A stretch of DNA of 64,000 nucleotides, taken from assembly GCF_002104995.1 (NCBI RefSeq), contig NW_024468254.1:1054001-1118000 (forward strand), in the 5' to 3' direction. Under the pieces are notes generated by a model that was not told the DNA's origin, made no database searches, and was given only the letters and a program-made list of their open reading frames with translations. Shown in pieces: positions 45,388-61,982 of the stretch (the first letter of the stretch is position 1; every line of letters starts with the position of its first letter). The translations under genes were made by a program, and so were the position numbers. The DNA comes from Linderina pennispora (Eukaryota > Kickxellomycota > Kickxellomycetes > Kickxellales > Kickxellaceae).

Positions 45388-46196
45388 ATACTGGAATCGA
45401 GTACGCTTTTATTTGTCAAATCTGAAGTAGTAAAATATACTTTATGCTACATGGTTTTTTCATCATCAGCAATCAACATGTACGAGGCTAGCTACTGAAA
45501 TCAATGTACAGGCTATGTCCAACTGGAACACCACTCATGCTTAAGGTGATGGTTTGTTCACAGGTAGCCATACCAACACATGTCTAAAAGTGGATATACG
45601 ACATATTATCATCTGATTTTAAGTAGCCTACTCTTGTGTTTGTCATATGTCCACACAGGAATCAACCCAAGAGTTCCAGTGATCCTGCAATTCTTCTCTA
45701 CTCGCACTCTGAATGAGTCGACGGCGTTGCCTTCACACCTTCAATCTTCAATGGCTGTGAACTCTTTGCATCAAGTGTCATTTTACTCGGCATCCATGCA
45801 GAACTCGGGATCCTGAAACCTATCTGTTAATTCGCTCGGCCAATTCTGTAAAGAGCTTTAGAAATCTTCAATAATATCTGAAATGTACTACCCAACACGG
45901 GCTGGAGATACTGAAAGAATCTGTATGGTGCCGTTTTGTTTTTTCAACCTCGGCATGTGCTTTTTGCTACCACGCAACCATGCCTCTTATACTCATAGCT
46001 TGACCGCCAAATCTTCCTGGGCAACAGGTTGATATCAGAGAGTATTTAAGGTTTGATATCACCATCAGCCTGCATGCCTTGCAAAAACTAAGCAACTAGG
46101 CATAGTGGGGTTCTCCTTTTCCATTCCCTAGCTTTCTTTTTGATTTTGGATATTTCTATATTGGTTGCCCCTTTTAGAAACAGATACATCCAAACT
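45388..46196. other. Intergenic, nothing recognised
   Basis: AT-richer than the coding regions. A 78-codon ATG frame at 45580-45816 has no convincing features. Confidence 0.45.
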
Positions 46197-46541
46197 TCAT
46201 TGCTGCACATCGTAAAGCCCCACAGAAAACACCTGTCGAATCGACGTAGCCGAACTGTCAGGCTTGACCTTCACTACAGCAAATGTGCTGCTGTAGTCAA
46301 TGTCCCGCTGAAGTTCAATGCTGTCGAAGGAGCGGTTGTCGCTGACACCCTGTGCGTACAGGCCAATATCAACACGCCGCTGGTCGTCCCTGCCTTGTGG
46401 ACCGGTGTCAACATTCTTGAAGGGCAAAATGTGACGATAGTCGGCAGACTGCTGCTTTTCGGCCTTGCTCTCAGGAACGCACATATAGCTATGGATGTGC
46501 TCCACAATGAGCAGGGCCAGCTGCTATATCGGAATGTAGAT
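46197..46541 (-). pseudogene. FunK1 kinase relic (fragment of N-terminal nuclease-like region)
   Basis: Frame reads IYIPI-stop-QLALLIVEHI, then RHILPFKNVDTGPQGRDDQR, DIGLYAQGVSDNRSFDSIEL and STFAVVKVKPDSSATSIRQ. It closely matches the central part of the FunK1 gene at 50679, at DNA level too. An internal TAG is at 46524-46526, the EVK motif has become KVK, and homology ends abruptly at both sides. A truncated, disabled duplicate. High DNA similarity implies recent origin. Confidence 0.8.
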
Positions 46542-47223
46542 CCTGGTTACGAGGATCCTACCAGAAGTCAAGTCGCCGATCTAGCCTTTGACACATTTGA
46601 GTGTATCACTGACCAGGCAAAATGCAAATGTTGAAATTATAGGGGCTCTGTTTTGGAATGAGAATAGAGGTTTGACTAAGGATTTCAAATGCTATTAGCA
46701 CGATAATATATGAAAAAGAGAAGAAAAGCCAGGGCTCTTGAGCACTGGCCTCTTGATTCTCTCCAGGTAAAATACTGCAGCATCTGTTTGATAGAAGCGA
46801 TGTGCTAAAGGGCAGAATGCCATTGTGTGCGTCGGGGATATGAGGTTGTACCCTTATCATCCGCATCTGAGTCACTGCACCTGCTATTATGCACCTGGCT
46901 GGGTCCTAGAACATCGGCATGAATCCTTGCACCAATATTCGCTGGCTTGGGCATGCAACACTACATTCATGCTCCTAATTAGGTGCTCTGCTACTGGTAT
47001 GTGATACCAGATGTTGATATTCAAGCCCAAATTGGTCTCATTCTGACTATATATATAAACCCCTGTCATTGTTAGCCTTGTAGCTTTCAGAGTGCGCTTG
47101 ACTGATCACTAGGATTACAGGTTCGAAGTATATCAACATCCGGTCGCTTGACTTTACCCGATCTCAATACATAGTACTAATGTAGATTTAGATATCGAAG
47201 ATAGTGTATTAAGTTGAAATTGA
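46542..47223. other. Intergenic between FunK1 relic and FunK1 gene
   Basis: The first 70 bp may carry a more decayed extension of the relic (several stops). The rest shows no gene. Confidence 0.4.
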
Positions 47224-49886
47224 TTATAGTTTACTCCTTGAACTCTTCCAGGCCTCGGTCATCGTCTTCAGCAGTGCTGTGGTGATATCGCTCTTCTTCT
47301 CCAACCGCTCCTTGAATGGATTAAACCTTACGCGCGTTCTTCTATTTATATGAAACCACGTGCCTTTGTAGCGGCTACCGTCGCACGTGTCACCCTTACG
47401 CAGGTTCGGATTTTGGAACAGATCCATGTAGAGATCTTCCACAAGATCTTTTGCGATATCAATATCTCTATCGAGGTGAAAGTTCACCATGATTCTCCCA
47501 TTTAAACCACCAGGGGAGCTTAGTTGAGCCATTTTCGAATCAACAGCATCATCCGCAGATCCAGTACGCCAGCGATTGATTGGTAGTTCCCTCAGTTCCT
47601 CAGATGACCGCCTGCTATCTGGAGCAAAGCCTTTTGTAGCGCACCAGCAGATCAGGTATATCAGCGACTCCCAATCGTCCAGAGCAGTTCGCTCCACATC
47701 TGATTTGGCAAGGTTGTTGATGCTCATAAATGGGATCGTTCCTCGTGTCTCCAGGTTCGGCCCTTGCGAACCACTCAGATCGAGTGCGCAATCAAAGTCG
47801 ATGAGCAGTCCGCGCGCCGGTTTGCCCTCCTCACGCACGACAAGAATATTGTTGCTTGAAATGTCCCGGTGGAGGATGTTGCACCGATTCAGCAGCTCCG
47901 AGTGGCAGCGCATGGCATCGCCCAGAACAGCAATGAACTCATGTACTGACTCGACCGTGCTGAGCGACTCGCCGATCGGCGACATGGCCAACCGCTTGTG
48001 CGCGCGGAACGGAATTGCAGCTCCAGCTGGCATACGCAATGAAAACAATGGACCCAGTATGCGCTTCATGTTGTCCTCGAAGACCTCGCCATTGGAATCG
48101 ATATGGACTCTGCCGCCAGCATCGAGCCTAGGATAGACCAAGTCCTCGACATCTGACTGCGCCAGCTCTGTGGTGATCCGGTGCATAATCTGCACCTCGT
48201 CTCGCTTGTCGTGGACAGGATCCTCCTCTGCCTCCGGCCACGCGTCTTTCAGAACAAACTTGGGTATGATGCCGCCACCAGTGGGTTTCTCGTCTGTCGC
48301 CAAATAGCACCTCGTACGCCGTCCAAACATGCCGTCCGCTGCCAGTAGCACCTTGTCGAAGTAGTACGTTTTTGTTGTTGCAGGGCTCGACGACTTGCCT
48401 GCTGCATCAGGACACTCAATGGTCCAGCATTTGTGCTCAGGGTTCCAGAGGATACCTCTGTCATACCCGAGTTGGTCTTTCTCGCACAGTGCAAAGTTAG
48501 CCAACAGCTCGACAAACTGCCGACGACCGGCTGCTGTTGTCATGTCGAGAGCGCTCGATGAAAAAGCCGCGTCGTTGGAAAACAGGCACACTCGCACCTC
48601 ATTGTCGCACACGGTCAGACCCCAAGCGAAGCGTCTGTTGGGTTGATTCCTGTAGATGCTGCGTGTCCTCTGCATCAGCTGCGCGTAAGCCTTGTCAACT
48701 GTGCGCCGGGTCTTGCCGGATCGAGCTTCAATAAGGGCCACCATATTTTTGCTGTGAAAGTCAGTCAGTAGCTCGATATCTGTAAGTGCGTGCTGAAACT
48801 TGATGCCTGCCTCAAACTCCGAAGCGTCGGTATTGCCGCTGGACTGGGGTCTAGGACGGGTGCATGGCAGCAGCTGATAATAACTCTCGAGGTATCTGCT
48901 GAAAGGGCCCGTATCCAACGCACGAATGAGGGTGTCGATGTGTTGAACGACAAACAGAATGAATGACATGGCTGATTCATGTATCTTCTTCGCCGTGTGT
49001 ATGTCGTCATCGTCGAGGCTGTCTGTAGATGTAGCCAGTGGTGGGCGAACCCACTCCTCAAACGCTGCAAGAGCGCTGTCTGTTGACCCGCGCTTCTCGT
49101 CTTTCGCCTTGTCGTATGCTGCAATGTCGAACAGCGTATGTTGCTGCTGCTGCTGGCAGGTGGTGATATCGCAAGCAAGTTCTCTGAGAGTATCCTGGAT
49201 ATCATCGACGCTGCTTGCTGCACTGCCAGTGACTAGGCTGAGCCGGCGCTCCAGCTCCAATGCGACCTGAGTCGACACCAGGTCTGCCAGCTTGCTTGTC
49301 ACGGTATTTCTCGACTTTACACTGTCAAATACGCCGTTGGCATCACGGATCAGTCGTTCCTTGGCCCAGTGGTCGGCTTCGGTCAACACCTCGTCTTTGT
49401 TATTCCACCACTCCATACCTTGGCTCAGCTGGGTGTTCATGTTCGGCGTGTTGCCCCTCATCATGGCCATTATTTTGTCGCTCCAGCTATTTGAGGACTG
49501 GTCTAGTGCCCGGACCCAGCGGCCATTAGGGTAAATGGATGCTATACCAGAATCTGCACAGTTAGCAAATGTGCATGTCATAAGCGTACCATAGTAGCAA
49601 GGTCCACTATGCGCTTACCTCTTGCGCTCTCACCCTTTTGTGTCTTCTTTGCTGGTGGTTGTGCCGAGTAGTCGTCGTCATCTGATTCAGAGTTCGAGCG
49701 CGACCGCTTGGTGCCAATGCAGACTGTGTTGCTAGAGGAGCGTGCCTTCTTTGGTGGCGAGAACTTGCTAACTGGCGATGAAATGGAGCTAGAGAATTTG
49801 CGCTTGATACCCGTAGCGGCTGGCTTGCTGGCGGCAGGAGCTGACAGAGTCCAGGAAAGCTCGGCAATATTGTTGCAGGTAGTCAT
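47224..49886 (-). CDS. FunK1-type fungal kinase, 865 aa, one intron, kinase motif intact
   Basis: Exons are 49886-49619 and 49553-47224 (minus). The 65-bp intron starts GTAAGC and has a TGCTAAC branch and a TGTGCAG acceptor, and the join preserves frame (GESAR-DSGIAS). The N-terminus has NLS-like basic patches (FSPPKKARSSS, AKKTQKG). The middle region corresponds to the REase-like part of FunK1 but is degraded: the acidic D is lost and ExK reads EAR (48721-48729). The kinase part has ILHRDISSNNILVV (HRD, 47863-47871), LLIDFDCALD (DFD for DFG) and GTIPFMSI, then DDWESLIYLICW, the FunK1 signature. Substrate unknown. Second FunK1 gene nearby at 50679. Confidence 0.88.
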
Positions 49887-50678
49887 GGTCGACTGATAAA
49901 TTACAATGCGAATGGGTTCAAATGCAGGAGAATGTGTATGTCTTAATGCAAAGCTAAGAGAAACAAAAGCTGTAGGCAGCAGCTCTGGAGTGGTTTAAGA
50001 GCTGGAGCGAGCAATCACCATTGGCTGCAGCGTGTTTACTGCCTGGGGTTTTTCTGCAGAGACTGTTTACGAAAAGGCGCTTGAGCAGATCCGATTTAAT
50101 CGGCTCCCGCATTTTAAGCACTGCTTCAGAGATTGGGAGTGTGGCGCTGGCTGCATCAGTATGCTTGCATTCAGCGACGGCTCTGCAGATTCGAATGAGG
50201 AGCCGGCTCGCAGAAATGCAATGGGTTCTGAGCCAACTACTTCATAACAGGATCAAGACAGTCGGGCGAGACAAGGGAGCGCTTAGGGCTTGTGCTGAGC
50301 ATGCATGGGCAAAATTCATATGTGCATGTGAAGGAGGGCACATACTTGTGTCACTACAATGTTCCCTTTCTTCACTTCTAGAGTATACCAATAACCCATC
50401 TATTTTTGACCCATCTATTTTTGACCCATCAATGGCTCATTTGCTGCAAAGTAGGAATTTGGCTGGTGTTTCCTGTAGACTAGCGATATGCCCATGCTGT
50501 CTAAACGCGATGATCTTTCGAAGACCCTTTGAGGCATATAAATATGACGGTCACCTTTTACTTTGGGTCCACAGTGCTATATTGCCGCTTGCTTATTAAA
50601 TTGCAGCCGTAGTGTAGATGTAGTGTGTTTTATAGTGACAAATGAAGCGATTGAAAATATTTACTTGTTGCCTTGAGA
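49887..50678. other. Intergenic between the FunK1 genes
   Basis: A 192-codon plus-strand open frame (50021-50599) has no ATG at its head and spans a short tandem repeat. I consider it non-coding. Promoter of the FunK1 gene at 49886 lies here. Confidence 0.45.
50395..50430 (+). repeat. 15-bp tandem repeat, 2.4 copies
   Basis: Unit CCCATCTATTTTTGA twice plus CCCATC. A local slippage duplication. Confidence 0.8.
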
Positions 50679-53222
50679 CTATGCAATGCAAATGTTCCGT
50701 GAGCTCTTCCAGGCTTCGGTCATCGTAGCAAGCAGTGCTGTGGTGATCTCTCTCTTCTTCTCCAGGCGTTCCTTGAATGGATTAGGTGTTGTATCCTCTC
50801 CTCTGATCCGCATGGGCTGTGTACCTCTGTAACGACTCCCATCGCACGTGCCATCCTTACGCAGGTCCAGTTTTTGGAACAAATCCATATATAGATCTTC
50901 CACCAGGTTTTGCAAAATGTCAATATCCCTGTTGGGATGAAAGTGCCTGATGATTCTTGAATGGAAGCCATTAAGTGTTTCCAAATTATCCTTCTTGGCT
51001 TCACCGATTTCCTTAGGAGTTCCGTTTCGCCACTTGCTGATTGCCAAGCCCCTCATACTCGCGGGATGTCGCCTATCTTTCTTATCCCTGCAAATCCCAA
51101 TCGTTGCGTACCAGCAGATTAGGTAGACCAGCGACTCCCAGTCGTCCAACTCTGTCTGCTCAACGTCTGACGCAAGCAAGCGGTTGATGCTTGCATATGG
51201 GAGCGCACCTGTCTGCTCGCTGCGTACTGGTGCTCGGACCTGTCCAACCTCCAGGGCACTGTCAAAGTCGATGAGTAGCCCGCGCACTGGCTTTCCTTCC
51301 TCACGCACTACAAGGATGTTGCTGTCAGTGATGCAACGATGGAGGATGCTGCACCGCTTCAGGATCTCCGAGTGACAGCGCATCGCGTCACCGAGAACCA
51401 CTATGAGCTCATGCACTGACTCTACGTGCTTCAGTGGTTTTCCAATGTTGCCCATTATGACACGTGTGTGTACGCGGAACGGAATTGAGCCTCCATCTGG
51501 TTTGCGCAGCGAAAACAGCGAGCCCAGTATGTTTTTCACGTTGTCCTCGAAGACCTCGCCGTTGGCATCGATGTGGACTCGGTCGCCAGCATGGAGCTTG
51601 GGATATACTAAGTCCTCGACATCCGACTGCGCCAACTCTGTAGCGATATGGCGCATGAACCTGATTTCGCTCCGCTTGTCCTGGGCAGGATCCTCCTCAA
51701 CCTCCGGCCACGCGTCCTTCAGAATGAACTTGGGTGCAATGCCGTTGCCAGTGGGTTTCTCGTCTGTCACCAAAAAGCATCGCCTGTGCCGACCGAAGAG
51801 CTCGTCCGCACTGGACAGGAGCTGCTTGTCAGAGTAGTACGTTTTCACTGTTGTGGTGCCCGACGACTTGCCCGCAGTGTCGGGACCTTCGATGGCCCAG
51901 CAATTGTGCTCAGGGTGCCAGCGGATCGTTGGGTCGTAGCCCAGCTGATCAACCTCGCACAGTGAAAAGTTGACGAGAAGTTCGACGAACTGCCGACGAC
52001 CAGCTGCTGTTGTTATGTCGATGGCACTGGACGAAAAGACAATATCGTTGGAAAACAGACATGTGCGCACCTCATTTCCGCACATTGTGATGCCCCAGAT
52101 GAAGCGGCGATTTGGCTGCATCGCATACATGTTTCTGCTGTAAAGCAGCAATTGAGCAAGCGCCTGCCGGACCGATGCAGCCAAACTGTCAGGCTTGACT
52201 TCAATCACAGCAAATGTGCTGCTGTAGTCAATGTCCTGCTGGACCTCAACGCTGTCGAAGGAGAAGTCGTCGCTGACACCCTGTGCGTACAGGCCAATGT
52301 CAACACGCCGCTGGTCGTCCTTGCCTTGTGGACCGGTGTCGACGTTCTTGAAGGGAAGGATTCGGCAATAGTCTTGCAGCAGGCGGCCAAGATCGCGGTC
52401 CTTCTGACAGTCTTCGACTTGACCGTCGATCTCGCGCATGGAAAACAGTAAGAGTTGCTGAATCGGGAAATACGTTTTAGTCTCAGCGACCTTCCCTTTT
52501 TTCAGCAGTCTAAGCCAGTTGCTGACTTCCTCCAGGGGGTCCTTTGTCGCATTTCTCGGCTGGTGCTGCTGCAAATTCGGCAAGCTGGCAGCAGGAATAG
52601 GCTCACCCCCTGCACCACCGGCCGGTCTAGCGCTAAGGCGGTTCTCCAGCTCTGCTGAAACATGTGCAGTGATGTCGCTCGCAACACTACGCAGTGCCAC
52701 CGAGCGTGGGCGGCAGAATTCGAAAACGCTATCCTCATTCTCGACCACACGACCTTTGGCGAACGCCATACTCTCGGCGTCCCTCTCAGCCGTGTGATCC
52801 GACTGGACCATGGACATGTTGGAGAAGACAGTCGCGTTTGTTGTCTTCTGAACAAATGGACTGTTCTCCAACACGCCGGTGAGCCTCGCCTTTTTCGACT
52901 CTGCATCTATAACGGTTGAGTTACAGTTATTAGGTTAGACTTCATGTGGTTGTTGCCTTGTACCTGCTGCTATGTGTATATATGCACACGTACCTTTGTT
53001 CTGGTATCTCCTTTGAAAATACGGCGACTGATCCAATGTTGTTGCCGAAATACCTTCATAAGTATAGGATGCCAATGTCCGTTTACATGTCGGAGTAACA
53101 AAGCTGTCCAGAGGAAATGATTGTGTATTGCTCTGCCGAAGTGTTTGCTGCGGACTACTCGGTTGAAGTGTTTGCTGTGGACTATCTGGTTGAGATGGCT
53201 GGTGTTGGCTATCCTCTGTCAT
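50679..53222 (-). CDS. FunK1-type protein, 818 aa, one intron, probable pseudokinase
   Basis: Exons are 53222-52994 and 52906-50679 (minus). The 87-bp intron has a GTACGT donor, a TAATAAC branch and a TTATAG acceptor, in frame (RYQNK-DAESKKARL). No ATG opens exon 2, which supports the splice. Exon 1 is Gln/Pro/Ser-rich with TLxPSSPQQTL repeats. The REase-like region looks intact: VDIGLYAQGVSDD, FAVIEVKPDSLAASVRQALA (EVK 52194-52202), then Q-L-L-L-Y. The kinase region has HRCITDSNILVV: the HRD aspartate is Cys (51333-51341). LLIDFDSALE and DDWESLVYLICWYA follow. No kinase activity is expected; the domain may bind partners. Confidence 0.86.
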
Positions 53223-53768
53223 CTTTGCCTGAGTAGTGGTCGGTGAAAAATGAGTTTGCGTGGATAGAGAGGAAAAAGGACAGGAAAGAGCGCAGTAAAG
53301 ACGGTGGGCGGTTCAGGTCAACAAGAGGGAGTGCTGGCATTTGTTCAGCCTGCCTGAACTAAGAAAAACAGTGTTCCATTGTTGCAAATGAGCTGCTCAA
53401 GCACCCCTGGGTGGCGTTGGAGTCGTCCAGAGATGGTCAAAACGGCTATATGCGCCGCTGTTGCAAATAAGATTAAATTTAGGGTTAGGAAATCAGCCAA
53501 GATGCTGTTTCTACATATCGGAACACACTAGGTGTAACCTTGGTGGGCTTACATGCCAGAAATCATATCCACATGAAGAAGACTTCGGTGTGTGTGAATG
53601 TCTGCAGTGCTTCTGCATGTCCCTTGGTTTCTTGGTGTTCTTAACTGCGCTTTATGTGTCTGGCACGCCACTGTAGAATACTCTACAGAGCCTTGTGTCC
53701 GTCGATATTTCGAGTGTGTATATTAGAGTATTATCGAAAGAAAATTGAAGCCCCACCTATCGCCTTCA
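53223..53768. other. Intergenic, nothing seen
   Basis: FunK1 promoter and 3' flank of the SPX-phosphatase gene. No gene or RNA recognised. Confidence 0.5.
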
Positions 53769-55802
53769 TTATCCGACCAGCTGGAGTTCGGCAGCCTCAC
53801 TCTGCGAGTAGCCCATCAGATACAGTACGTTCGCCAGGCTCTTTTGGTTGATCCGGGCACGTGCTTCCTGCTGCACCTTGGGCTTCGCATTGAACGCAAC
53901 CCCCAGGCTAGCCTTGCCGAGCATGAGCAGGTCATTGGCACCGTCGCCAACAGCAACAACCTGGTCGATGGCAATGCCTTCGGCCTGGGCAATAACCTCA
54001 AGGAGTTCTGACTTCCGGACCGCATCGACAATCGGTCCCACGGTCCGACCCGTCAGCCGCTTCCCATCAGTGCTGACCTCCAGCTGGTTGGCAAAGGCGT
54101 AGTCTAATCCGAGCTCGTTCCTGACGTACTTTGCCAGCGGAATGAACCCGCCAGAGATGACCGCCAGCTTGAATCCGGCATTCTTCAGCGCACGGCACAG
54201 GTAGTGCGCGCCTTCTGTAAACACCAGCTGCCGCTTGACCTCCTCTAGTGCCTCAATCGGCGTGTCCTTGAGCAGCGCAACCCGACGGCGCAGCGACTCC
54301 TTGAAGTCGATCTCTCCACGCATCGCACTCTCAGTAATGGCCGACACCTCCTCTTCGATGCCGGTGGCACGCGCAATCTCGTCAATGACCTCCTGCTGGA
54401 TCAGCGTCGAGTCCATGTCAAACACGACCAGGCGCTTCTGTCTGCGGAACACATTGTCGGGCTGCAGAGCCACATCAGTCTGGAATCCGGTGCTCAGAGT
54501 GAACAGCTCGGCCTTCATCTCCTCCAGCGACAGAGTGTCAGGCACGCTGAGGCGGAACTCGACGCACATCAGCTCCGAGTGCTTGTCCAGCCGGCGCATC
54601 TGCTCGACGCTGATCTTCTTCTTCAGCAGCCATTTAAGCCAGGCGCTCAGGAACTCGGGTCCCAGCCCGCGCTCGTTCAGCACTGTGGCAATGTACTTGA
54701 CACGCTGCGCATACGGAGCCTCGTCCAGCTTGTACTCTGACTGCCCACTCAGCACCGATGCCTTGAGTCGCGCGTTCTGCACATCAAACGTCAGGGTGCC
54801 GTCCCACTTTTGCGCAGTCTCGGCCAGGTCACTGAACAGGTCGACGTCGCCGTTGTGCAGATGCACAAGAACGCCAAACGTCACATCGTGGTGCAGCCGC
54901 GAGAGCGAAAAGTCGATGATCTGGCAGTTGTGCTTGGACAGGCAGCCCAGCACTCCGCCAATGATGTCGGTGCCGTGCGGGCCACGCAGCGAGATCATGA
55001 CTGTCTGCGTCTCATGCAGCAGATCGACCAGTGGGCTGAGCTTGGGCGAGATGTTGATGCCAAACGACGTGTTGGGCAGTCCGGACGGCGTTTCGACCCG
55101 GGTAGAGGTTGTCGAGTCGGTGTGCCCGCCATTGAGGACCGCTGGTAATGTGCCAGGATGTGTCCGAGACTCGACTGCAGCTGCCAGGGCATCAGACGAA
55201 CTGCCGCCCTCCTGCTCCACCAGCAATGTAGCCAGCTGGTTCATCAGCTCGGGCTTCAGACGCAGCAGAGAAGTGGAAACTACAAACGACAGCTGCGAGG
55301 TACGCATCAGGTAGGGCTCGCGGATCTGCAGGCCAGACCACTTGTCGTGCTTCTTCAGTGCCTTGGCAATGGCAGTGAAGTTCAGGAACACAAAGCGCTC
55401 CAGCAGCAGCAGGTCCTTCAGCGCATCTTCGCACTCGGCAACTGTTGTCTTCTGCATCGGATCCAGCACCCGGTTGATCCGCTCCTTGGTTGCGTCCTTG
55501 ATCTTGACAAAGAACGAGTTGATCCGCTCGATGTCGGCATCCAGCATCTTGACGAATGCGGGTGTCAGCTGGGTGACCTTCTCCAGGCGCTGGTGCAGCA
55601 TGGCGTCGAACGAAGGCTCGGAATCGGAGCCCGGTGACCACTGGAAGACGTGTGTGCGCGGGAACGAGCTCGACAGGTGCACGTTGCAGCCGACCATGCG
55701 CGTCTTCAGAAACGCCTTCAGTGCATCGTATTCAATAAAGTGTGGCTGCCACTCGTCCGGGAACGCCGTCTTTTGCTGATTCAGGTAATTGCCGTATTTC
55801 AT
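53769..55802 (-). CDS. SER2: SPX-ACT-phosphoserine phosphatase fusion, 677 aa
   Basis: One uninterrupted frame from the ATG at 55802. Residues 1-165 look like an SPX domain: MKYGNYLNQQKTAFPDEWQP, HFIEYDALKAFLK, AFVKMLDADIERINSFFVK and the lysine-rich helix NFTAIAKALKKHDKWSG (K147, K150, K151, K154), which in known SPX proteins binds inositol pyrophosphates. A linker of about 90 residues follows. ACT modules lie at about 265-335 (TVMISLRGPHGTDIIGGVLG) and about 410-446. From 455 a complete SerB/Ser2 HAD phosphatase follows: VVFDMDSTLIQQEVIDEIAR (D462, D464), AVISGGF (S550), K597 and GDGANDLLMLG (D620, D624). It should dephosphorylate phosphoserine in serine synthesis. Usual fungal Ser2 lacks the SPX part. 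No introns. Confidence 0.93.
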   Translation of the reverse strand: MKYGNYLNQQKTAFPDEWQPHFIEYDALKAFLKTRMVGCNVHLSSSFPRTHVFQWSPGSDSEPSFDAMLHQRLEKVTQLTPAFVKMLDADIERINSFFVKIKDATKERINRVLDPMQKTTVAECEDALKDLLLLERFVFLNFTAIAKALKKHDKWSGLQIREPYLMRTSQLSFVVSTSLLRLKPELMNQLATLLVEQEGGSSSDALAAAVESRTHPGTLPAVLNGGHTDSTTSTRVETPSGLPNTSFGINISPKLSPLVDLLHETQTVMISLRGPHGTDIIGGVLGCLSKHNCQIIDFSLSRLHHDVTFGVLVHLHNGDVDLFSDLAETAQKWDGTLTFDVQNARLKASVLSGQSEYKLDEAPYAQRVKYIATVLNERGLGPEFLSAWLKWLLKKKISVEQMRRLDKHSELMCVEFRLSVPDTLSLEEMKAELFTLSTGFQTDVALQPDNVFRRQKRLVVFDMDSTLIQQEVIDEIARATGIEEEVSAITESAMRGEIDFKESLRRRVALLKDTPIEALEEVKRQLVFTEGAHYLCRALKNAGFKLAVISGGFIPLAKYVRNELGLDYAFANQLEVSTDGKRLTGRTVGPIVDAVRKSELLEVIAQAEGIAIDQVVAVGDGANDLLMLGKASLGVAFNAKPKVQQEARARINQKSLANVLYLMGYSQSEAAELQLVG

Positions 55803-56874
55803 GATAGAGCAGAATAATATGCGTGAAACTGAAGAGAAAGAGTGGAAATAATAAGAATACTAGCGCTAGGTGCGGGAGAGCTGGGGGAACAGAGATAGGT
55901 CCTCCTGTTCTTTATCAGCTGTCTCTCCCCACCACCTGGGCTTGGAGCGGGTGGGCGGGGCGAGTCAACTGGCGTTCTTCGGAGATTAAACCTCGAATAG
56001 AACGGCCGGGAGCGAGCTCGTTTTGGTGAGTAATGAAGCCCCTTTGCCCCATTTTCCAGCACTGATCACGCTAGATAACGGGCTGACTGGTATCATTCAT
56101 TTCGCAAGCCCAGAGAGTTTGCCCAGCACCCAGCAGACAATGAGGAACACATTGTCGTCTGTGCTTTGTTTATGGCCAAGCTCGATGGTCCCTACATGTG
56201 GGCAGGGTGATTCGCAGCCAGCCATGGCAATGGTGCCGCTACAGTATAAATGGCCGGAGCTTTCCCTGGAAATACATATTGTCAAGCTGTCTACCAATCC
56301 AAACACCACGCACTATGGATGCGATAACCTGCACTACAGCTTTACCAATACGTCCACTCTGCTCATCTACGCCTCAGACTCACTCAACCAAAGCGGAGCT
56401 TATTATTATGAAGGACACATCAGCATCCAGGCCCCACTTCTGTCAAATCAGGGTCCAAAACGCTGCAAGGGCCAAAACTTCACCAGCAGTAATCTGAAAC
56501 ATCTACCCGCCTGACATCTTAGAGCAACTATGTTCATTCCTTTAGAGCTATTCAGACATCAACATAGTCTTGTTCATAGCTGTGTGCTTTCTAATGTAAG
56601 TGCTGCTAGAGCTGGCTTGTTGCTAGGCCCAAGCACCGTCATGATCCAGATCTACCCGGTCGGCAGAGCCCAGCACCTAGCTGCCACGACCCGTGCAGTA
56701 AAATTATTTGGATACCGCCACACCGCTGTTTCCTCAAGCAGAGCTGATCACTTTGAAGATCACCAGATAAGTGATCTCAGGCCGGCTCCACACGTGGGTG
56801 CGATCAGACCACCCTCGCACTGGCTTTTTGCTTCCGCACTCTTTGTGCTTCATTTAATATTAATAGTCTACACC
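55803..56874. other. Divergent intergenic region of the SPX-phosphatase and F-box-like genes
   Basis: Contains TATAAAT near 56243 on the plus strand and an open frame (56023-56514, plus) with no ATG at its head. The downstream gene's frame is also open back to an ATG at 56530, so part of this region may be a longer N-terminus. Confidence 0.45.
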
Positions 56875-59741: not shown

Positions 59742-61982
59742 CTACTTGCCACGCTCAATGGGTACTGCCTCCGACCTGCAAATCGGACATCTGTTGGCGC
59801 CCTGGGTGAACCACGAGTCGCCGCACACCAGGTGCAGCCCATGGTGGCACTTTAGCACACGCAGTATGTCGCCGACCTCAAAGTCCTCCAGGCACACGGG
59901 GCACCGCTCAGCCGACACCAGATGCACGACAGCCGGCATACTGCCAGTGTCCACATGGCTTTCTTCCTGGTCGTCCTCGCCAACAATGAGCTTGGCAACC
60001 GACAACTCAGCGTCCTCCGCCGTGCCCCGCGTCTCGAGGCGGTATCTGGCCAGCGTCTTGTCAACCGCCTCCTGGCTCACCGTGTTCGACGACACCTCGC
60101 CGATGATATTCGCAATCTCCATGAACAGCTCGTAGTTGCCGCCCGACAAATTCATCTGCAGGTCCGTCGAACTCATGTCGTCCTGCAGCAGCTCGGGAAA
60201 CAGCTCGTATGTCACCATGGTCAACAGCAGCGGGTTGCCCAGCGTCATATCCTGAATGGTCACATATATCGAGAGGCCAGCGTTGTTTGGCGCCCCATCT
60301 CCAGGCGATGCCGGGGCGGTGTCTGCAGCGCTGGCTGGGGCTGTGCCTGCTGAGCCCGGACCGGCACCATCGGGTGTTTCCTGGCCCGCCTGCACCGTGC
60401 CCCCGCGCAGATGGCCGACAAAGTTCGGGACCAGCGAAGTGAGCCGCTGGCGCAAGCTCTCCATAACTGATTGCAGCCTGGGCACCGCCGGCTGCTCCGG
60501 CCCTGCAGCCTGTGGCCCCGCGTTAGCCAAGTCACGCGTCAGCCTGCTCGACAAGGCGTTCTCTGTGGCCTGGATATGCCGCTCAAGCGACTCGCTCATG
60601 TCGGGAGTATGTGCTCCGCTGGCGGTGCTGTTGTTGCTGCTCGACGAGGAAGTGGTGGCGGCCGTTGTTGTCGTAGTATCGGGACTGGCAAATGAAGAAG
60701 GCTCTGCATTCTCCGCCTGTGCCAGGCGGCTGAGCATATCGTGGCTCATCTGCAGGCCCAGGACAGCAATTGGTACCTCAATGTCACGGCGCTCGTCATG
60801 CATGGCCCGTGCAATTTGACGTAGCCGCCACAGCCTCTCGTCCCGCTCGTGGCGGACGCTATTCCGGCGCCGCTCGTCCAGCGAAAGAGGGCGCACAGGT
60901 TGCTGCTGTGCATTGTCGGTAGCTGCCGACTGGTCAGATGGCACCTGTGCAGTGCCTTCCGGGGTCTCGGCTGCTGCTGTCCCTGCTGTTGCTGCTGTTG
61001 CTGCTGCTGCTGCTGCCGCCGCCTGTGGGACCGACGGAGCCGTATTCAGCGAAAACATGGGCTGAAACTCGGGATTATGCGAGATGCTCAGGCGGTCGTA
61101 CTGCAGCAGCGCCTGTTCAATGGCGCCTGGCATCAAGAACATGCGGAATATCAGGCCAGATGATGACGACGCTGGCGATGACCCAGACTCACTGCCATCA
61201 GCGGCATCATCTGCCGCACCAGCCGAGGTTCCAGACGCATTGGAAGTCTCCTGACTGCCATCATCAGCAGCAGCAGGAGCAGAGGCGGGACTGGCCGCAG
61301 CCATCTCGACATCGCCGTCACCCGCCGCCGCTATATCCTGCTGACTGGCTGCCTGCGGCGACTGGCTTTCCTCCTGGTGCTGTTGTCGCTGGGTCACGCC
61401 CGACGCATAGGTCTCGAGCATGGCCAGAATAAATAGCGAGATGTGGTACGTCAGGCCAATCCGCCCCCTGGTGTCCATGTTGTAGCCGGGCAGCCGCTGG
61501 CGCACTTCCGAGTGCAGCGCCAAAAGCGAGTCCAGCATTCCGCGGTTGGCGATGGCAGTGTCGCGCACCAGCCGCCGCCGCTCAATCTCCTGGGATATCG
61601 AGTTCACCACCGAGCCGCCGATGACCCGCGCCAGGAGCTCGTTTCGCCGAATCCCCTCTCGCCGACCGGCATTCGGGGTCGTCGGCGATGCCCCCGCTGC
61701 CGAGTGGGGTGCTGCTGGCCCTGATGCTGGAGAAGTATCCGCGGGTGCATTGTTCGATTCCGTCGCTTGTGTAGTCCTTGCTGGGGTTGTTGTGTACGGT
61801 GAGTACCGGGTCGCTCTCTGCTGGTGCTGCTGCGGCCGTGCGGCCGTGCCTCGCACACTCGACGACTGCGCGCGCGCCGGGGTGTTTGCCCGTGAGGTGT
61901 AATCCCGCACTAATCGGCGATTCGGGCGGTCGTCATTGCCATTGCTACCGGGTGCATTCCACCGCGAGTAGGCCTGCCCCAT
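59742..61982 (-). CDS. RING-H2 ubiquitin ligase with predicted N-myristoylation, 746 aa
   Basis: C-terminal RING-H2 finger RCPVCLEDFEVGDILRVLKC, then HHGLHLVCGDSWF and RCPICRSEAV. All eight ligands are present with C-x-H-x2-H-x2-C spacing and the E2-contact Trp (W of DSWF). The N-terminus MGQAYSRWN has Gly2 and Ser6, matching an N-myristoylation signal. The middle is mostly disordered: Ser/Ala/Pro/Gln stretches and poly-Ala (GCN repeats near 60970-61020), with several helical blocks (RLARVIGGSVVNSISQEIER-like). An E3 ligase tethered to membranes is inferred. The substrate cannot be told. Start is the first ATG after a long AT-rich leader. Confidence 0.85.
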   Translation of the reverse strand: MGQAYSRWNAPGSNGNDDRPNRRLVRDYTSRANTPARAQSSSVRGTAARPQQHQQRATRYSPYTTTPARTTQATESNNAPADTSPASGPAAPHSAAGASPTTPNAGRREGIRRNELLARVIGGSVVNSISQEIERRRLVRDTAIANRGMLDSLLALHSEVRQRLPGYNMDTRGRIGLTYHISLFILAMLETYASGVTQRQQHQEESQSPQAASQQDIAAAGDGDVEMAAASPASAPAAADDGSQETSNASGTSAGAADDAADGSESGSSPASSSSGLIFRMFLMPGAIEQALLQYDRLSISHNPEFQPMFSLNTAPSVPQAAAAAAAATAATAGTAAAETPEGTAQVPSDQSAATDNAQQQPVRPLSLDERRRNSVRHERDERLWRLRQIARAMHDERRDIEVPIAVLGLQMSHDMLSRLAQAENAEPSSFASPDTTTTTAATTSSSSSNNSTASGAHTPDMSESLERHIQATENALSSRLTRDLANAGPQAAGPEQPAVPRLQSVMESLRQRLTSLVPNFVGHLRGGTVQAGQETPDGAGPGSAGTAPASAADTAPASPGDGAPNNAGLSIYVTIQDMTLGNPLLLTMVTYELFPELLQDDMSSTDLQMNLSGGNYELFMEIANIIGEVSSNTVSQEAVDKTLARYRLETRGTAEDAELSVAKLIVGEDDQEESHVDTGSMPAVVHLVSAERCPVCLEDFEVGDILRVLKCHHGLHLVCGDSWFTQGANRCPICRSEAVPIERGK

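Follow-up and report, generated by a model that had tools for sequence, protein, structure and literature searches.

Gene structure at the locus

The window analyzed is a 64,000-nucleotide stretch of the Linderina pennispora genome (contig C179, positions 1054001-1118000; 26.2 Mb of genome were searched). Its minus strand holds, at 53769..55802, one open reading frame of 677 codons plus stop that runs from the ATG at 55802 to the stop at 53769-53771 with zero internal stops and encodes a protein of the order SPX-ACT1-ACT2-SerB. The start codon agrees with the relatives: among 114 family rows that cover the next position, 111 have K2 there. The first-pass annotation had proposed a single uninterrupted frame with an SPX domain, two ACT segments and a SerB-type HAD phosphatase, and the Pfam and NCBIfam scans bear this out; the residue numbers that it gave for the SPX lysines (K147, K150, K151 and K154) and the catalytic residues (D462/D464, S550, K597 and D620/D624) are all correct.

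The SPX domain (residues 1-192; 55227..55802, minus strand) matches PF03105 with an E value of 6.5e-12 and 46.6 bits against a cut-off of 27.8, so that the SPX call has its profile match. In the structure model, this part is helical, with predicted helices at residues 3-11, 25-36, 65-113, 121-156, 161-168 and 177-197 (block pLDDT 74-97), and its sequence matches in the PDB are to plant SPX1/2 (SPX2 at E 9.2e-12), the Gde1-type chain 5ijp, VTC3/4 and XPR1. Matches to TAL-effector repeats, with E values down to 7.6e-15 in the PDB profile search with a family alignment (A1), were rejected as repeat artefacts, no stretch of them passing alone. None of the 50 rows of the full-length structure comparison was an SPX chain, the rows being taken up by the HAD part, and in the model (pTM 0.66) SPX is not placed with confidence against the catalytic part.

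A linker follows (residues 193-264; 55011..55226, minus strand) that is largely disordered in the model (205-252 at pLDDT <50) and ranges in length from 29 to 93 residues among 140 proteins. ACT1 (residues 265-342; 54777..55010, minus strand) is recognized by PF13740 (ACT_6; E 7.6e-8, 32.6 bits against a cut-off of 23) and is the only ACT domain called by Pfam; ACT2 (residues 360-450; 54453..54725, minus strand) was placed by alignment to Mycobacterium avium SerB (residues 268-670) and by the strands and helices modeled at 367-448. The HAD phosphoserine phosphatase domain (residues 455-669; 53796..54440, minus strand) matches PF12710 (E 5.2e-21) and passes the SerB equivalog model TIGR00338 with 275 bits against a cut-off of 144.15; its catalytic motifs, DxDST, SGG, K and GDGxND, are all found. 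A search of a viral sequence collection gave zero matches, and the Pho4-like motif CACGTG occurs 14 times in the 64-kb window against 21.5 expected from shuffling, which is no signal. Elsewhere on the minus strand, positions 59742-61982 encode a RING-finger protein of 746 aa (zf-RING_2, 41 bits) that contains long stretches of low complexity.

A second copy and a putative intron

The whole gene lies within an inverted duplicated segment (window 45720..56188) that matches C179:988268-998725 with 96.9% identity over 10,483 bases. The two copies of this 10.5-kb segmental duplication are about 101 kb apart and carry, besides the SPX-SerB gene, a FunK1-type fungal protein kinase sequence (window 50679-52874, minus strand; PF17667, 175 bits); cross-matches of ~73% within the segment point to an older tandem duplicate of the kinase around 47.2-48.6 kb. 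Genes with equal or near-equal scores were also seen on the contig pairs C145/C1, C157/C149, C106/C1, C1/C189 and C13/C141; because several of the searched genes appear twice on different contigs, the assembly looks as if it comprised two haplotypes or duplicated contigs.

In the second SPX-SerB copy, the fusion is intact. The two coding sequences differ at 22 nucleotides, 18 of them at third codon positions, and the proteins at two amino acids only, which suggests purifying selection on both copies. The public protein of this species named phosphoserine phosphatase (P0002) is identical to the second copy except that it lacks residues 195-211, and the 51 nucleotides dropped from that gene model (55170..55220 in our copy, minus strand) start with GT, end with AG, lie in the linker and preserve the frame. 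As the same residues have aligned counterparts in Coemansia proteins, the stretch is probably coding and not an intron; were it an intron, it would be an in-frame one, and the SPX and SerB halves would therefore stay in one frame.

Phosphatase, pathway and signal genes in the genome

A search of the genome with TIGR00338 gave 23 matches, and the two over the cut-off are the two fused copies, the next match scoring 38 bits. With the broader PF12710, there were 17 matches, 16 over the cut-off with the fused copies included; eight of the 14 further frames over the cut-off were scanned, and none is a SerB: six are MtnX-like, passing TIGR01489 and reaching at most 26.4 bits as SerB, and two are other HAD types, one an unassigned HAD-IB (L039) and one of HAD-IA type (L042). 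From the TIGR00338 search and these eight frames, we rejected a further phosphoserine phosphatase without SPX, save for a very divergent one, which may exist. MtnX-like HAD-IB phosphatases occur as tandem pairs on two contigs (C35:256526-258031 and C96:7066-8568).

The phosphorylated serine pathway ends with phosphoserine phosphatase, whose reaction releases phosphate. For the preceding enzymes, a SerC-like frame scored 437.8 bits (cut-off 443.6) and pieces of PGDH reached 145.3 bits (cut-off 454), both judged by curated, prokaryote-based thresholds; since the matches fall below these, the pathway in Linderina is probable only. On the side of the signal, genes for PPIP5K (126.9 bits, cut-off 35) and of the IPK family (145.5 bits, cut-off 22.2) were recovered. 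With these and the SerC- and PGDH-like genes, signal and pathway both appear to be present.

Distribution and losses of the fusion

Three protein searches, of which the best 120 of 6599, 7986 and 2622 hits were retained, provided 256 distinct proteins, our own included; the second search used a C-terminal piece as the query and had a length limit of about 590 aa, which favored SPX-less proteins. Domains were assigned with models derived from the 68-row alignment A1, and a match of ≥40 bits that covered 120 or more of the 187 positions counted as SPX. By this measure, SPX stands ahead of HAD in 141 of the 256 proteins among the matches listed, with ACT2 in all 141 and ACT1 in 140 of them, a count that is partly by construction as the models were built from family members. 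As an independent check, Pfam SPX was found at E values up to 1e-3 in 67 of the 68 members of A1. The co-occurrence of SPX and SerB in fungi is thus well borne out (141/256 among the matches listed), and the fusion's unfamiliarity, remarked on in the first-pass annotation, holds for one half: the architecture is common in databases, which already compute SPX on such proteins and name many of them phosphoserine phosphatase, but we found no description of the fusion in the open-access literature, searched partly by ranked lists. A survey of mycorrhizal nutrient signaling has "SPX" ten times and "phosphoserine" zero times in its main text (PMC8401276). In our view, SPX-SerB adds a new class to the SPX-fused effectors, though its sequences were already in databases.

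Among the matches listed, the fusion reaches from the chytrids to the Glomeromycotina, and two ascomycetes have it in decayed form. It was found in Coemansia, Kickxella, Mycoemilia, Furculomyces, Smittium, Syncephalis, Thamnocephalis, Basidiobolus, Rhizopus, Mucor, Phycomyces, Umbelopsis, Endogone, Mortierella, Rhizophagus, Diversispora, Ambispora, Geosiphon, Spizellomyces, Rhizophlyctis and Piromyces, among others, and in Paraphysoderma of the Blastocladiomycota. SPX-SerB is also present in the EukProt entry Partr_v1 (P0254), a label that we take to stand for the aphelid Paraphelidium tribonemae. The Dikarya with an SPX match among those listed are two Taphrinomycotina, Saitoella (P0238; SPX 131 bits, with K29 replaced by T) and Neolecta (P0164; SPX 50 bits, the lysine cluster mostly deleted); in both, the damaged SPX pocket occurs together with a decayed HGTD loop in ACT1. 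No SPX was seen on SerB of red algae, of one EukProt entry or of bacteria among the matches listed, to which the length limit of about 590 aa applied.

A HAD match above 200 bits without a qualifying SPX was found in 114 of the 256 proteins among the matches listed, some of them fragments or marked partial. Complete-looking SPX-less proteins come from Gigaspora, Dentiscutata, Lichtheimia, Fennellomyces, Dimargaris, Tieghemiomyces, Coelomomyces, several chytrids and two Pezizomycetes. Since relatives such as Gigaspora, Dentiscutata, Lichtheimia, Fennellomyces and Dimargaris, among others, keep ACT-SerB without SPX, the domain is evidently dispensable for catalysis, and some of the apparent losses could be truncated gene models.

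A quick tree was made from 56 rows picked by hand (308 columns of ACT2-HAD). In it, the 50 rows of the fungal side are set apart, with a support of 94, from the red algae and from single EukProt and bacterial entries. The Gigaspora pair falls within Glomeromycotina and the Lichtheimia pair within Mucorales, the Dimargaris pair stands beside Ramicandelaber, and Coelomomyces beside Paraphysoderma. The label of SPX presence requires at least seven changes on this tree, of which the strongly supported branches force only two, many deep forks being unsupported. The simplest reading that fits is an old fungal architecture, gained early and then lost several times. In the same SerB tree, Ramicandelaber (P0148) clusters with Dimargaris and Tieghemiomyces (P0158, P0159) and not with Coemansia (support 87). 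Three proteins (P0165, P0163 and P0173), one of them annotated as Anaeromyces robustus, constitute a fast-evolving SerB paralog, and P0165 retains an SPX remnant without the contact residues.

Conservation of the SPX pocket

AtSPX1 is reported to have a phosphate-binding cluster of Y25, K29 and K139 and a lysine surface cluster of K136, K140 and K143 (PMC7810988). The Linderina equivalents are Y25, K29 and K150 for the former and K147, K151 and K154 for the latter, with spacing identical to that of AtSPX1. From residue positions and family conservation, we assign Y25 to K29 (55716..55730, minus strand) as the putative first part of the phosphate-binding cluster and K147 to K154 (55341..55364, minus strand) as its remainder together with the predicted lysine surface cluster. 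Across the ungapped rows of the 141 proteins among the matches listed, Y25 is kept in 134 of 135, K147 and K150 each in 137 of 138, and a K or R at position 29 in 132 of 135, at 151 in 140 of 140 and at 154 in 137 of 140; the sole exception at Y25, K147 and K150 is the divergent paralog P0165. For comparison, the catalytic residues D462, D464 and S550 are present in 141 of 141 rows, and K597, D620 and D624 in every ungapped row.

Drift of the other basic residues was assessed in the 86 rows left after dropping 31 Linderina-, Coemansia- and Kickxella-type rows; Mycoemilia, presumably also of the Kickxellales, was retained. Among the 31 K/R/H positions of the Linderina SPX, 15 have a K or R in less than a quarter of the rows, and those basic in more than 90% are K2, K29, K33, R72, K147, K150, K151, K154 and K183; R167 is basic in 77 of 86. 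In the 86 rows, the mean frequency of the commonest residue is 0.90 for HAD, 0.75 for ACT1, 0.74 for ACT2, 0.56 for SPX and 0.39 for the linker (values ~4% too high, from a divisor of 83 in place of 86). The conserved lysines fit inositol-pyrophosphate sensing by the SPX domain.

The ACT1 loop and serine feedback

In M. avium SerB, L-serine is described as contacting D17 and I126 (PMC10564941). The aspartate of the M. avium loop GVDQPGV, which by its chain numbering should be D17, aligns opposite H276 of the Linderina loop GPHGTDI (residues 274-280; window 54963-54983), in which G274 and the run H276 to I280 do not vary across the 117 rows of the family. In this alignment, ACT1 thus lacks the serine-contacting aspartate of the mycobacterial enzyme. 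In a 23-row alignment, the HGTD loop is also found in all eight SPX-less fungal rows, is absent from red algae, a EukProt entry and Desulfuromonas, and is decayed in Saitoella and Neolecta; as a side observation, fungal ACT-SerB, with or without SPX, has an invariant GxHGTDI loop where bacteria and red algae have one that contains D.

The first-pass interpretation is therefore only partly upheld. What stands is the fusion with its catalytic motifs and SPX lysines, conserved across several fungal phyla; the serine feedback through the ACT modules that it had added is unsupported at the residue level, with a histidine at the aligned position in every one of the 117 rows. With its invariant loop, ACT1 may bind some ligand in these fungi, though not through the known serine contact.

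Proposed mechanism and alternatives

Our preferred reading, to which we give a probability of about 0.6 from the sequence evidence, is that the fungal phosphoserine phosphatase is controlled by inositol pyrophosphates (PP-InsPs) bound at its own N-terminal SPX domain. We favor it chiefly because the pocket has been selectively conserved over the depth of the fungi. IP7 or IP8 would bind the pocket of Y25, K29, K147, K150, K151 and K154; in the ligand-free state, the tethered SPX would restrain the ACT/HAD part or its assembly, and the ligand would relieve this restraint, such that serine synthesis would run under plentiful phosphate and slow down in starvation. The choice of activation as the direction is a guess that tips only slightly over inhibition and leans on the analogy of VTC, where PP-InsP relieves an SPX-mediated inhibition: PP-InsPs are described as activating VTC by breaking an SPX-SPX contact (PMC10167327, PMC12653687). 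As to the signal itself, an older report has IP7 rising on phosphate starvation, contrary to the view in which it falls (PMC10511240).

The opposite sign, with PP-InsPs inhibiting the phosphatase, the enzyme being released under phosphate scarcity and its product phosphate retrieved, is a serious possibility, if clearly the lesser one. It would use the same anatomy and draws on the phosphate released by the reaction. However, the serine pathway would regenerate phosphate that is already cellular, making the net gain small, and the VTC precedent, as described, goes the other way (PMC12653687).

The main rival to gating as such is that SPX serves as a PP-InsP-dependent docking or turnover module, which would bring the enzyme to a partner, membrane or degradation system while catalysis itself stays unaltered. 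The linker is long, variable and disordered, which in our view is as much in keeping with a tethered domain for partner binding as with an allosteric switch, and PP-InsP-dependent binding of an SPX domain to a partner has a precedent in AtSPX1 with PHR1, as reported (PMC7810988). We consider docking clearly less likely than gating, though deserving of attention. That SPX is a passive remnant, retained merely for folding or dimerization, seems improbable: the domain has indeed been lost in several relatives and is decayed in P0165 and two ascomycetes, but its contact residues are kept in nearly all of the 141 rows while other basic positions drift. Finally, an assembly join or missed intron merging two genes, hinted at by the linker intron called in the public model of the second copy, can be dismissed, as that intron would be in-frame, the second copy is intact and the same domain order recurs in 141 proteins among the matches listed, from many genomes and metagenome contigs; nothing separates the two halves in the way that the first-pass annotation had thought could undo its reading.

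Should gating by PP-InsPs hold, a soluble amino-acid biosynthetic enzyme would be under the direct control of a phosphate signal, and the architecture suggests that phosphate status is linked directly to amino-acid synthesis. The route from phosphate status to carbon and nitrogen metabolism becomes testable with one purified protein. More tentatively, at somewhat less than even odds, the fungal ancestor, perhaps together with aphelids, may have wired the phosphate signal into serine and one-carbon metabolism through a PP-InsP receptor on the last enzyme; most Dikarya, the model yeasts included, would then have lost this receptor, and the invariant HGTD loop of ACT1 would be the site of a second effector other than serine, so that the protein would integrate two signals. 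If this ancestral reading is true, the PHO network derived from yeasts misses an old metabolic branch.

Comparison with known systems

Mycorrhizal fungi, chytrids and moulds have SPX-SerB, but fission yeast, among the yeasts from which the PHO pathway is known, lacks it; passages of a fission yeast study name six SPX proteins, SerB not among them (PMC8749416). A group of SPX-less fungal SerB proteins (Rhizina, Kalaharituber, Batrachochytrium and others) shares the SerB-type HAD domain with Linderina but matches neither the SPX nor the ACT1 model derived from A1. The mycobacterial enzymes SerB and SerB2 (3p96, 5is2, 5jlp) likewise come without SPX, and their loop GVDQPGV, holding the serine-contacting aspartate, differs from the GPHGTDI of Linderina. 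The N-terminal SPX domain, with equal spacing of the phosphate-binding and lysine surface clusters, is shared with the VTC subunits, Gde1, Pho81, Pho87/90/91, XPR1 and plant SPX1-4; unlike in those effectors of phosphate homeostasis, the SPX of Linderina is fused to an amino-acid biosynthetic enzyme.
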